In this document: in pieces, positions 52,992 through 56,125 of the stretch
How positions within the stretch are numbered: the first letter of the stretch is position 1
Layout: the number at the start of each line of letters is the position of its first letter
Assembly (NCBI GenBank): GCA_946554335.1
Contig: CAMNSA010000002.1
Span: forward strand, 186,001-250,000
Direction: 5' to 3'
DNA from: an uncultured Neglectibacter sp.
GTDB taxonomy: Bacteria > Bacillota > Clostridia > Oscillospirales > Acutalibacteraceae
Length of the DNA stretch: 64,000 nucleotides
Notes under the pieces: model-generated
Database searches by the model: none
The model's input: only the letters and a program-made list of their open reading frames with translations
Told to the model about the DNA's origin: nothing
Translations under genes and position numbers: made by a program

Positions 52992-53114
52992 ATGTCCACC
53001 AACCTCTCCAAACAGAAGCGGGACGACCTGCTCTCCAAAATCTCCGCGATCCGGGCCTATATCGCCGCCGCGCCCTGCGCGAGTTTTTCGGCGGCAAGGG
53101 CGGCGGTGGGCTGA
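52992..53114 (+). pseudogene. 5' stub of a type III restriction-modification methyltransferase (mod) gene
   Basis: Forty codons: STNLSKQKRDDLLSKISAI, RAYIAAAP, then unrelated residues and a stop. The first 28 residues match the usual N terminus of Clostridial Mod subunits, which continue DENTGNLLSYLSELEKDV; the match ends at about 53076, where the sequence becomes the 3' end of the opposite-strand DUF4180 gene. A TATAAT at 52951-52956 and GAGGAAACTGAT before the ATG are left over from the lost gene. No catalytic domain remains. The Mod reading is from memory of the family. Confidence 0.6.
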
Positions 53115-53434
53115 AAGTAAATGTCCCGCCCGTGATTGCTCTCATACATAAAGTCCTTTAAGGGCTTGCTGGTATACTTGGAAAAATCCCCGTACACCGC
53201 AAAGCGCACGCCGTAGTTGATGAATTTCTGCAAAATTTCTCCTGCCAGGCAGGTGCTCAAAACAAAGAAGTCATTGATTATGGCCTCTTTATTTAAAGCG
53301 ATATTGGTGCAGCCTGTGTCATATTTCACCGTCATGATCAGTTCCAACGCGGACTGGACGTCCTTGATCAGCACCTCATCGCTGTTTATGACCGCGATCT
53401 CTGTATTGCTTATCTTTAAAACTTCTGTTTTCAT
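53057..53434 (-). CDS. DUF4180-family protein, C terminus altered by a junction
   Basis: 125 residues: MKTEVLKISNTEIAVINSDEVLIKDVQSALELIMTVKYDTGC at the start (quoted by its ends MKTEVL and YDTGC), IALNKEAIINDFFVLSTCLAGEILQKFINYGVRFAVYGDFS, YTSKPLKDFMYESNHGRDIYF. Family members end near EKLAQ; here GAAAI and a stop are added from the opposite strand of the mod stub. The family is unannotated in function. It lies 12 nt downstream of the GNAT gene. Confidence 0.8.
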   Translation of the reverse strand: MKTEVLKISNTEIAVINSDEVLIKDVQSALELIMTVKYDTGCTNIALNKEAIINDFFVLSTCLAGEILQKFINYGVRFAVYGDFSKYTSKPLKDFMYESNHGRDIYFQPTAALAAEKLAQGAAAI

Positions 53435-53446
53435 GTTGTACCTCTT

Positions 53447-54217
53447 TCACTTGTTCATTTCGTCAACGATGTTCTTGGGCTTCACCGTCATTTCCACCCA
53501 GGCAGGGACAAAGCCGCTTTTTACGGCGTTTCGGGCGGAGCGGATGTTTGACCAGGCGCAGCAATAAAACGGGACCTTTCCTCTTTCCAGAATTTCCACG
53601 GCCAAATTGCTTGTCATAGCGGAGGCGATCCCTTTTCTGCGGTATTCCGGCAGCACATCCACGCCGATCTGCCACATCTCTTCACAGTCGGCGGAGCAGG
53701 CCGCAAGCCCAATCAGCTTCCCCTTTTCAAAGGCGCCCACGCCCAAAACATCCAGCTCTTTTCTGTCCTTGCACAGCGCGTTGCTCCACTGGGGCACATA
53801 GAGCTCTGAAAAGTCTTTTTGCTCCAGAACCTTCAGCTCGTAGTCACAGGACAGGCGCGTGAGCTTATTCAGATCGGGCAGAAAATATTCCGCCATAAAG
53901 CAGACCTTCTGGCCGAAAGGCTCCAGGCGCTCCTCCAGCCAGTGCAGATTCGGTGTTTCAAAGCAGTGGAAGAATTCAAATTTCTGAAGATACTCTTCCA
54001 CAAGTTCCCTGTATTCTCCTTTTACGGACGCGACGATATTGCTTCCATAGGAAACCAGGTTGCAGGCGATAGGCTCTTTGTAATATTTTCTGGCCAAAGG
54101 GCTGAGACTGAATTCTACAACGACATTTGCGCTTTTCAGAAAATCTGTATCGGACGCGTTAAGGTCTATGGCGGACTGCTGCATTGCAATTTTCAATATT
54201 TCTTGATTGCTGAACAT
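53447..54217 (-). CDS. GNAT-family N-acetyltransferase
   Basis: 256 residues: an N-terminal domain of about 130 residues and a C-terminal GNAT fold with LIGLAACSADCEEMWQIGVDVLPEYRRKGIASAMTSNLAVEILERGKVPFYCCAWSNIRSARNAVKSGFVPAW (quoted by its ends LIGLAA and GFVPAW; the acetyl-CoA loop is RRKGIA). GGGAG lies 5 nt before the ATG and within the last codons of the preceding frameshifted gene, so translation may be coupled. Substrate unknown. Confidence 0.88.
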   Translation of the reverse strand: MFSNQEILKIAMQQSAIDLNASDTDFLKSANVVVEFSLSPLARKYYKEPIACNLVSYGSNIVASVKGEYRELVEEYLQKFEFFHCFETPNLHWLEERLEPFGQKVCFMAEYFLPDLNKLTRLSCDYELKVLEQKDFSELYVPQWSNALCKDRKELDVLGVGAFEKGKLIGLAACSADCEEMWQIGVDVLPEYRRKGIASAMTSNLAVEILERGKVPFYCCAWSNIRSARNAVKSGFVPAWVEMTVKPKNIVDEMNK

Positions 54218-54220
54218 GAA

Positions 54221-54570
54221 TTACTCCCTTCGATGTTTGACGGTCTTAACAGAGGCAATCAGTTTTCTGCGAATGGTTCCACACTTGTTGAGTAATCTTT
54301 TATAATCTGTACCATCAAACGAATTTAACTTAAATAGAATTTCAAGCCAATACTCTGTTTTCATAACACTCTTTTAAAGCAATTTCTAATTTGTTTATAA
54401 AATCGGCATTGCTCTGTGCATATTTTGCTTCATGTGAATTGGCACCGATGGATGAACAAGAACGCAATAATTGATTGACAAATACAGAGCGGCCTTTTAT
54501 TCCATCACAAATTGTGGTTGTTTCAACAGTTAGCTCTACTGCTAATTCCTTAATTTTTTTTGTGATCCAT
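54221..54570 (-). pseudogene. Four-helix-bundle protein (TIGR02436/23S rRNA intervening-sequence-protein family) with two frameshifts
   Basis: ATG at 54570 has AAAAGGAG 5 nt upstream, but the frame breaks after MDHKKN in a run of eight A (plus-strand T run 54554-54561). With one A less it reads MDHKKIKELAVELTVE..., VNQLLRSCSSIGANSHEAKYAQSNADFINKLEIALKECYE. A second break in a run of four A (54358-54361), again corrected by removing one A, gives TEYWLEILFKLNSFDG...RRKLIASVKTVKHRRE and a stop 3 nt before the GNAT start. The span is exactly two bases over a 116-codon gene, the normal family size. Family hallmarks are QLLRSxxSIGAN-x-x-EA and ADFxxKLxIALKE. Either a recently broken gene or assembly slips in A runs. 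Confidence 0.75.
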
Positions 54571-54583
54571 AAAAACTCCTTTT

Positions 54584-54763
54584 GCGATATGCTCGCTTCG
54601 CTCGTGCGATATATTTCACTTCGTGAAATGCGATATAATCTTTGCTTTTTTCCGATTGTGATATGATATAAATTCCTTCTTCTCGTTGCGCAGAGACATA
54701 TCGCGTGCTTGCACATATCACATCTGTGGGATATATCGCAAATTCGTAAGGAATTTATATCGC
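54584..54763 (-). repeat. GCGATAT/ATATCGC repeat array in front of the four-helix-bundle gene
   Basis: GCGATAT at 54584, 54606 and 54630; ATATCGC at 54698, 54733 and 54757; near-copies in between (TGATAT, ATATCAC). Small palindromes lie between units: TTTCAC-TTC-GTGAAA, GTGC-TT-GCAC, AAATTC-GTAAG-GAATTT. The array ends at the rlmD stop codon, which it supplies (GCGATATAA). Confidence 0.8.
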
Positions 54764-56125
54764 GTTCTGTTTGCACAGCAAACAGACACATTCCACATGG
54801 GCGGTGGCGGGGAACATGTCCACAGGGCAGGCTTTTATCAGAGGATAATGAAGCTCTTGAAACTGCTTTAAATCTCTCGCCAGAGTGGCGGGGTCGCAGG
54901 AGACATAGACGATCCTTTCCGGCGAGTAGGAAGAAACCGTCCGGATCAGCTCCGGCGTACAGCCCTTGCGGGGCGGGTCCAGGATCACCACATCCGGGGA
55001 GAGCCCCTCCCTTTTTAAGACGGCGGCGGCCTCTTCGGCGTCCGCGCAGAGGAAACGGGCGTTTTGAATGTGGTTTTTCCCCGCGTTTTCTTTAGCGTTT
55101 TCCACCGCCTCCGGCACGATCTCCACCCCGATGAGCTCTCGGGCAAAATGAGCCATGGAAAGGCCGATGGTTCCAGCTCCGCAGTAAAGGTCTAACAGGG
55201 TCTCTTTCCCGGTGAGTCCGGCATATTCCGCCGCCTTTTTATAAAGGCGCTGGGCCTGGTGATGGTTCACCTGATAAAAGGAGGCGGGGGAGATGGAGAA
55301 GGTCAGGCCGCAGAGCCTGTCCTCCAGAGCGTCCTTTCCGAAAACAGTGCGAAACTCCTTGCCCAGAGCCACATTGGTCCTTTCCCGCTGAGTGTTGATC
55401 TGGAAGCCGGAAAGCCCCGGCAGGGCCTCTCTGAGCGCGTGAAGCAGCTCCGCTTCGTGATGAAGTCCGTTTCCGTTTACCACCACGCACACAGACACCT
55501 CGCCGGTCTCTTCCCCTTTCCTCAGGTACAGGCGGCGCATTTTCCCCTTGTGAGTGCTTTCATCATAGACAGGATCCCCGTAGGTTTTCGCCCACTGCCG
55601 GAAAGCCTCCATTGCGGCGGTAAACTCCTTTGGCTGTAAGCGGCAGGCATTACAGCTTACGATCCGGTGGGAATTGCGGGCGTAAAAGCCCATCTGCAAA
55701 TTACCCTCCCGGTCAAGCCCCAGAGGAAGCAGGGCCTTGTTGCGGTAGCCGTCCCGGCTGGGAGCCGCCAAAATGGGCTCCAATGGGGGATCCGCGATCC
55801 CGCCGATCCGGGAAAGCGCTTCCCGCACCCGATCCTCCTTCAGGCGACATTCCTCTTCATAGCTGATATGGCGAAAGCAGCACCCGCCGCACTGGGCGAA
55901 AACGGGACAGTCCGTTTCCACCCGGCTGGGAGCGGGGGAAAGGATCTCTATGAGCTTCCCGAAAGCATAATTCTTCGCCGTTTTGAGGATCTTGGCCCGG
56001 ATTCGGTCTCCAGGGGCGGAGAGGGGGACGAAAACGGCTTCTGCACCCACTCTCCCCACACCGGCGCCCTCGGCCGTCATGCCGGTGACGGAAAGTTCCA
56101 CGATCTGATTTTTTTGAAGCTCCAT
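54755..56125 (-). CDS. rlmD: 23S rRNA (uracil-5-)-methyltransferase, RlmD/RlmCD type
   Basis: 456 residues. N-terminal TRAM domain (LSVTGMTAEGAGVGRVGAEAVFVPLSAPGDRI), Fe-S cysteines in DCPVFAQCGGCCFRHISYEEECRLK, SAM domain LLDLYCGAGTIGLSMAHFA, VVILDPPRKGCTPELI and VYVSCDPATLARDL (catalytic C in SCDP-adjacent motif and PPRKGC), and VDMFPATAHVECVCLL. It methylates U747/U1939-type positions. The last residues NAI and the stop come from the repeat array, showing that the array was inserted at, or recombined into, the end of this gene. Confidence 0.93.
   Translation of the reverse strand: MELQKNQIVELSVTGMTAEGAGVGRVGAEAVFVPLSAPGDRIRAKILKTAKNYAFGKLIEILSPAPSRVETDCPVFAQCGGCCFRHISYEEECRLKEDRVREALSRIGGIADPPLEPILAAPSRDGYRNKALLPLGLDREGNLQMGFYARNSHRIVSCNACRLQPKEFTAAMEAFRQWAKTYGDPVYDESTHKGKMRRLYLRKGEETGEVSVCVVVNGNGLHHEAELLHALREALPGLSGFQINTQRERTNVALGKEFRTVFGKDALEDRLCGLTFSISPASFYQVNHHQAQRLYKKAAEYAGLTGKETLLDLYCGAGTIGLSMAHFARELIGVEIVPEAVENAKENAGKNHIQNARFLCADAEEAAAVLKREGLSPDVVILDPPRKGCTPELIRTVSSYSPERIVYVSCDPATLARDLKQFQELHYPLIKACPVDMFPATAHVECVCLLCKQNAI

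Follow-up and report, generated by a model that had tools for sequence, protein, structure and literature searches.

Among the closest described relatives of the element reported here are the intervening sequences (IVSs) of 23S rRNA genes, which carry a gene of the S23/IVP family. In one published IVS, a few direct, tandem 7-nt repeats precede that gene and RNase III cleaves at the first repeat; the mobility of intervening sequences, proposed in 1993, is still one of several hypotheses (PMC4990558). Neither the S23/IVP protein nor the intervening sequences have an agreed function or route of movement. The Gut-1 RNA (Rfam RF01706) was published as a noncoding RNA motif of human gut metagenomes only, certainly an RNA and probably not cis-regulatory, and without a linked gene or mobility (PMC2864571). 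We analyzed a window of 64,000 nt (the whole stretch considered, positions 186,001 to 250,000 of contig CAMNSA010000002.1 in assembly GCA_946554335.1) from an uncultured Neglectibacter sp., in which a repeat array and a four-helix-bundle gene of the IVP family stand behind the gene rlmD, and compared it with related loci (denoted L) in other genomes.

The window element is a decayed copy of a compact unit that consists of a terminal hairpin, an array of four plus four repeat units, and an IVP gene. Genome comparison finds both filled and empty sites and horizontal spread, and to judge from the sequences the element is almost certainly mobile, having changed place between the 3' ends of many genes and tRNAs. 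The explanation we favor, at a probability of about 0.6, is that the window holds a decayed copy of a mobile hairpin-ladder/IVP unit whose terminal arm anneals at the end of its target. A first-pass annotation of the window had suggested a discrete mobile or selfish unit at this place, and the suggestion is supported by empty sites, by recurrence, and by the unrelated descent of element and host gene.

Filled, empty, and solo sites

Matches to rlmD were found in 26 of the 29 genomes of the genus, the window's own included, and an array follows the gene in one of the 30 rlmD-family loci read, that of the window (at most 130 nt were viewed; L048, L053, L054, L059, and L069 end at contig ends, and ten weaker matches lie outside the set). 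The rlmD terminal hairpin is likewise absent from the 29 other loci read. Empty sites, whose absence would have spoken against the first-pass suggestion, are seen in three filled/empty comparisons, at rlmD, at a histidine kinase gene, and at a glycosylase-like gene, in each of which the insert is discrete, at about 0.57–0.75 kb. For rlmD within one genus, the interval behind the gene is 607 nt in the filled L154 and 35 nt in the empty L155, and the two share the next gene. The kinase site was matched in 13 of 22 genomes of a genus: four loci are filled (L224, L226, L227, and L233), eight lack an array, and L228 is partial, a solo site with the terminal hairpin and left half-array alone, which is the product expected from a deletion that joins direct half-array repeats such as those seen in L224. 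The kinase intervals measure 698 nt in L224, 152 nt in L228, and 41 nt in the empty L225 (kinase 96% identical). The glycosylase-like site was matched in 10 of 11 genomes, nine of which were read; L214, L215, and L216 are filled and six are unfilled, three of these sharing the next gene, with intervals of 782 nt in L214, 209 nt in L217, and 35 nt in L221. In L215 (glycosylase 99% identical) the same base is filled by a different IVP lineage, in which TCGATAT is mixed with GCGATAT words. By size and reading, a recombinase gene is absent from the inserts of the three comparisons, which hold the array, the IVP gene, and, at the kinase and glycosylase sites, a second half-array. In 17 of 96 loci a stretch of at least 14 nt from the left part of the element is repeated in the DNA that follows the gene, and in L082, L092, L101, L103, L139, L175, and L183 the repeated DNA includes the left half-array.

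Distances between IVP proteins and between rlmD genes are unrelated across 38 rlmD-sited loci (Mantel r 0.026, with 999 permutations reaching 0.186), and in 25 pairs whose IVP proteins are 92–96% identical the rlmD proteins are 39–61% divergent; since such similar IVP proteins are encoded beside such divergent host genes, the unit moves. One genome, G076, has two arrays that are 95% identical and share their hairpin, one behind tRNA-Gln and one behind tRNA-Thr, on two contigs that each end inside the element.

The 3' ends of genes and tRNAs are classical integrase sites, and the units could be passengers, brought in by integrative and conjugative elements or islands that use rlmD (rumA) and tRNA 3' ends, with the terminal hairpin as attachment core. 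Several rlmD genes of the genus do bear other C-terminal additions that resemble integration products, and in L130, by reading, the end of a recombinase-like gene runs into rlmD-type HVECVV codons that are followed by the hairpin and array. However, the three small inserts consist of array and IVP gene only, and neither the solo arrays nor the copy behind two tRNAs in one genome needs an island, so that we consider carriage by an integrase unlikely. L130 looks as though a further element had come to lie between the array and rlmD. Another kind of element also seems to use the same site in L049, L056, L061, L063, L064, L066, and L072, where the rlmD-family gene has a long C-terminal extension (..ESKATYEEIKAYVLEKYGLKVSSLYISQVKRKCG..) that begins straight after the HVETV codons.

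IVP elements with arrays are present in a viral contig (L206) and in two unannotated faecal phage records (L211 and L212, the latter behind tRNA-Arg), which are possible vectors; as all three have arrays, phages may carry some elements. Carriage by phages or plasmids was rejected as the main route, with one relative in viral contigs and these two phage records; plasmids gave 25 IVP records, all below 60% identity and mostly cyanobacterial.

Target ends and the terminal hairpin

An RlmD-type end (DMFPxTxHVE) lies upstream of the element in 35 of the 80 scanned loci, the best 80 of 443 confirmed relatives in named genomes, and in 38 of 120 loci overall. The tRNA sites are Arg, Ser, Leu, Gly, Val, Pro, Gln, and Thr, and ARAGORN confirms a tRNA in 17 of the 18 loci given to it. 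Further targets, named from sequence reading alone, are a HI0933-like flavoprotein gene (L094, L116, and L135), a cysteine-rich gene (L117 and L136), and the glycosylase-like and histidine kinase genes. At the non-tRNA junctions, counted over 88 of 92 arrays, a co-directional frame of at least 90 codons ends in 58 of 76 cases and an antisense frame in 11 of 76, compared with 15% and 11% at random positions. By eye, the element starts at a TATAAT-like box instead in L081, L091, L125, L126, L133, and L144. Among 14 pattern matches to tRNA-like ends in four genomes, seven have an array, six are ordinary and terminator-like, and one is an unclear tRNA.

A terminal hairpin of at least 7 bp is found in 70 of 95 loci, in some of which the array start is misplaced, and at 20 of 581 random places 3' of the IVP gene. 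In 37 of the 38 rlmD loci (L174, with no unit, was left out), the 3' arm scores a mean of 12.6 against its own 5' arm and 6.1 against those of other loci, and the own 5' arm is unbeaten in 25 of the 37; among 25 close pairs with near-identical proteins, the fit is worse after the arms are swapped in 20 (mean 14.5 for own and 9.6 for swapped arms). These fits, together with two-sided changes in the hairpins, would also be expected if the rlmD 3' untranslated region held an RNA structure kept by vertical descent, with arms that co-vary by compensatory mutation. The empty sites, the discordant relatedness, and the many unrelated targets contradict such descent, the Mantel r over the 38 rlmD sites speaks against it as well, and we regard it as extremely improbable. 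Elsewhere in the window's own genome, a gene-less Gut-1 array (L003, contig C5, 1236–1620) repeats on its far side, in inverted orientation, about 17 nt from the end of the upstream gene, which resembles the target/inverted-copy arrangement at longer range.

Unit words, folding, and a possible mechanism

Relatives of the IVP gene occur in 110 of 250 genomes of the family, the window's own counted. The array precedes the gene in all of the nine closest loci read (L009–L017, the window among them, which share 77–87% identity with the window piece; one further close match, at 74%, is outside the set read) and in L022. The scanned loci are mostly (78 of 80) entitled metagenome-assembled genomes, many from ruminant guts. 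Forty distant loci were chosen by hand from the family listing, and are thus a non-random sample; 26 of them score at least six units and 11 exactly 4+4, with such words as TGAAAT, TGATAT, TGATGT, and TTATAT, and a score of six or more is reached by 5 of 1200 Markov resamplings and, in the control stretch 3' of the gene, by 3 of 39 distant loci. Loci below 60% identity likewise mostly have arrays, built from other unit words. The array detector is positive in 96 of 121 loci, 55 of the 96 being exactly 4+4, a shape that is partly built in because the detectors require a word and its reverse complement; hence the null comparisons given here. Nine unit-word classes, 4+4 being the commonest form, cover 92 of 118 IVP loci (from a set of 120, less L099 and L190 with fewer than 85 residues; the window copy was also left out), so that the recurrence of arrays at homologues, set in the first-pass annotation against homologues without arrays, was indeed found. 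In L098 a tandem repeat upstream of the gene comprises the right half-array together with the beginning of the IVP gene, and 14 reverse units lie within 600 nt.

Placed on the IVP protein tree, which has few columns and many weak forks, the unit word (nine words on 92 tips) changes 11 times, compared with a mean of 48 and a minimum of 40 in 300 shuffles, and the target class changes 23 times (shuffles: mean 38, minimum 32). On this tree the unit word tracks the protein, and the target tracks it less. Because the word changes along with the protein, a role of the protein in recognizing the array is likely, and the comparison suggests that the IVP protein probably recognizes its units.

The spacers between units close with at least four pairs in 318 of 415 cases, and in 20% after halves are swapped between spacers (81 arrays). 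In an RNAalifold alignment of 17 of the 22 listed arrays, units 1–8, 2–7, and 4–5 pair, with two-sided changes in 13 of 40 consensus pairs. Folding of the window array itself, which had been proposed as a check, gives a z of –2.63 as RNA and –1.96 as DNA, values that are, taken alone, unusual to a moderate degree only. We read the RNAalifold pairing as a ladder in which four short helices follow one another and hairpins stand at the three junctions. Among related arrays, the long inverted pair is conserved as GATATAAATTCC / GGAATTTATATC; the GATATAAATTCC segment pairs either locally or with the mid-array GGAATTTATATC segment, and two competing folds are therefore predicted.

The mechanism we propose begins with a transcript or single strand that would fold as such a ladder, with units 1–8, 2–7, 3–6, and 4–5 paired and the hairpins protruding at the junctions. 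The IVP protein would bind the ladder and read the unit word, and the resulting nucleoprotein would be the mobile form. A terminal arm complementary to the last 10–20 nt of the target gene would anneal there, and host replication or repair enzymes would complete the insertion by fill-in synthesis and template switching, so that an inverted match of the target comes to lie next to the element; a location behind stop codons or in tRNA trailers would keep the insertion harmless. It is likely that the element spreads without an enzyme of its own, and we advance insertion by annealing and template switching only tentatively.

An enzyme in trans was also considered. If the unit were a retroelement, a reverse transcriptase (RT) encoded elsewhere would copy the RNA, and IVP would act as Avd does in diversity-generating retroelements (DGRs). 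IVP resembles Avd (PMC10053308), and the direct half-array repeats flanking the gene, together with the solo half-array, recall the behavior of long terminal repeats. However, of 250 genomes, 40 have both RT and IVP, 70 IVP only, 43 RT only, and 97 neither (odds ratio 1.29, p 0.42; the genomes are incomplete and some of the IVP matches are not array elements), and RT was undetected in five of the nine genomes of the closest clade. The RT in trans was rejected on this lack of association, and a retroelement seems to us improbable. A Y1 transposase was rejected too, being unassociated with IVP in the 250 genomes and absent from the window's own genome at 1e-6.

Several observations weigh against the favored explanation. 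The unit encodes no known enzyme, and RT and Y1 genes are unassociated with it in the 250 genomes. Pairing of units 3–6 is not predicted by RNAalifold for the 17 arrays, perhaps because hairpin lengths misalign the units, and invariant units are uninformative on pairing. No classifiable array was found in 26 of the 118 IVP loci, and L104 and L106 have their IVP gene between forward and reverse half-arrays, an arrangement like that of the gene within an rRNA intervening sequence. Twelve of the 37 rlmD 3' arms fit another locus's 5' arm better than their own. At the kinase site the terminal hairpin is mostly extra sequence, not a copy of the target, and at tRNA sites it is terminator-like and can travel with the element; these two kinds of site rule out a target copy at every site, and we keep this interpretation for rlmD-type sites only. 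The filled kinase locus L233 looks like an element imported with the last codons of the gene. Finally, the 24-nt rlmD target stretch has a similarity of 0.77 between close elements and 0.59 between distant ones, with no such difference in the 30 nt before the DMFP codons (0.495 versus 0.492) and again slightly higher values in rlmD segments 90–150 nt away in a gapless comparison (0.46 close versus 0.37 distant). The element may thus carry along part of the gene end.

The greater likeness of the 24-nt stretch in close pairs would also suit homologous recombination, by which units would spread between species in short gene-end segments, their matching arms inherited and perfected by quasi-palindrome correction, and so would L233, whose last codons are common to the filled kinases though the remaining kinase is 66% identical. 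Similarity is, however, not raised over the 30 nt before the DMFP codons, and the targets, which include unrelated genes and tRNAs of at least eight isotypes, require new insertion; we consider it improbable that recombination accounts for the spread. Import with long flanks is unsupported at rlmD by flank similarity, and L233 is a probable import with the last codons.

The window copy and its relatives

The window copy of the hairpin-ladder/IVP unit (Table 1) has eight 7-nt units within 54584–54763, with small palindromes between them. The first-pass annotation placed the array correctly and counted three units in each direction; there are four and four, because two units are one-base variants. 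It was also right that a unit, GCGATATAA, here unit 1, supplies the final residues and stop codon of rlmD. Of 20 occurrences of the unit words in the window, eight fall within the array's 200 bases, where 0.038 would be expected from the remaining window, and a word-blind 6-mer score (six units) is matched by 2 of 2000 Markov resamplings of the region. Membership of the protein in TIGR02436, likewise proposed earlier, was confirmed (4e-14, with PF05635 at 1.3e-11), and on the longest frame piece the two profiles score 52.7 bits (cut-off 24) and 45.1 bits (cut-off 33.8), both over their curated cut-offs. The intact 115-residue protein that had been described was not confirmed in this copy, the frame being broken twice: from the ATG behind the ribosome-binding site (RBS) it stops after six codons, a second frame encodes the bulk of the protein, and a third its C-terminal part. 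Copies elsewhere are intact, and intact relatives match PDB 2rld at 1.4e-28.

Table 1. Coordinates of the element and its target gene in the window
Feature	Position	Strand	Remarks
rlmD, target gene	54755..56125	–	Open reading frame; RlmD by TIGR00479; final codons and stop are shared with the terminal hairpin and unit 1
Terminal hairpin, 9 bp, 3-nt loop	54766..54786	–	5' arm 54778–54786 is rlmD coding sequence; 3' arm 54766–54774 is its inverted copy
Left half-array, units 1–4, hairpins interposed	54698..54763	–	GCGATAT 54757–54763, GCGATAT 54733–54739, GTGATAT 54715–54721, GCGATAT 54698–54704
Long inverted pair	54665..54761	–	14-nt arms 54748–54761 and 54665–54678, complementary throughout
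Right half-array, units 5–8, hairpins interposed	54584..54664	–	ATATCAC 54658–54664, ATATCGC 54630–54636, 54606–54612, and 54584–54590
RBS-like AAGGAG and ATG	54568..54581	–	AAGGAG 54576–54581, ATG 54568–54570; from sequence
TIGR02436/PF05635 four-helix-bundle (IVP) gene	54221..54570	–	Two frame breaks

The broken IVP gene is followed immediately by two genes of the same strand (53057–54217), one for a GNAT acetyltransferase and one of the DUF4180 family.

The window element stands behind rlmD and not in a 23S rRNA gene, and the rRNA-borne IVP gene of the same genome is a separate locus. That locus (L001, contig C13, 1501–1821) is an ordinary intervening sequence with an intact PF05635 gene inside the 23S rRNA gene; a TAGTCGTTAGAC-like repeat stands on both sides of it, in imperfect copies that are inverted relative to each other. 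Gene-less arrays of GTGATAT words in the same genome (L003 and L004) reach the Rfam cut-off of Gut-1; the window array, at 27.5 bits (54693–54765) and 20.3 bits on opposite strands, does not reach this cut-off of 50. An apparent solo half-array of TGAAAT type (L005, contig C1, 1480–1560) lies behind a GAAAAAAGCACGCC hairpin and scores 39 bits for Gut-1, below the cut-off; at the permissive threshold used for this genome (E up to 1), below-cut-off matches occur also in 4 of 14 control genomes. Across 20 loci, half-arrays reach the Gut-1 cut-off in eight, of which L184, L186, L195, L199, L206, and L212 bear the gene; L195 and L212 are gene-bearing Gut-1 elements behind tRNA genes, and each half of the L195 array matches, one half per strand. 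The Gut-1 RNA is a half-array of such elements, and this orphan RNA thereby gains a genomic identity. A search of the open-access literature, mostly by title, found no paper that connects Gut-1 and IVP genes with these arrays.

By eye, IVP genes lie near other short repeats on plasmids of other phyla, namely of Nostoc, Planktothrix, Treponema (GGAAAG/CTTTCC), and Bernardetia (TAGTGAT), and, within Clostridia, on a plasmid of Monoglobus (L207–L210 and L213 together). In Monoglobus, inverted repeats stand on both sides of a broken IVP gene amid restriction genes. Elhai and colleagues reportedly described in 2008, in cyanobacteria, small dispersed repeats forming tiny hairpins among heptameric repeats and thought to be mobile; we know of no protein linked to them. 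It is possible, though rather doubtful, that Gut-1, the 23S intervening sequences, and the short repeats found around IVP genes of other phyla form one superfamily of enzyme-free mobile elements, in which a hairpin ladder of paired unit words, recognized by its matching four-helix protein, would move as a nucleoprotein and be inserted behind tRNA, rRNA, and protein genes by terminal-arm annealing, with an inverted copy of the target end left next to it.

For a mobile element of about 0.6 kb without a known recombination enzyme, the empty and changed sites, the solo remnants, and a unit word that tracks the protein make mobility and protein–nucleic acid recognition directly testable. The likely enzyme-free spread would also open to testing the movement of ribosomal intervening sequences, a question of long standing. 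In REPIN/RAYT and IS200/IS605 systems, whose Y1 transposases recognize hairpins, short palindromic mobile units are likewise tied to a single-copy protein gene; IVP, by contrast, is a four-helix bundle and not a Y1 nuclease, and Y1 genes are unassociated. A DGR has a hairpin beside the 3' end of a gene, to which the present terminal hairpin may be likened, and Avd is a related four-helix protein, but IVP presence has no association with RT in the 250 genomes. The window unit is, on these sequence comparisons, a variant of the IVS kind outside rRNA whose mobility is shown by genome comparison. Its protein belongs to the same family as that of the 23S rRNA intervening sequences; in contrast to these, window-type elements lie outside rRNA, behind tRNA and protein genes, have an inverted 4+4 array with hairpins, and have clear empty sites as counterparts.

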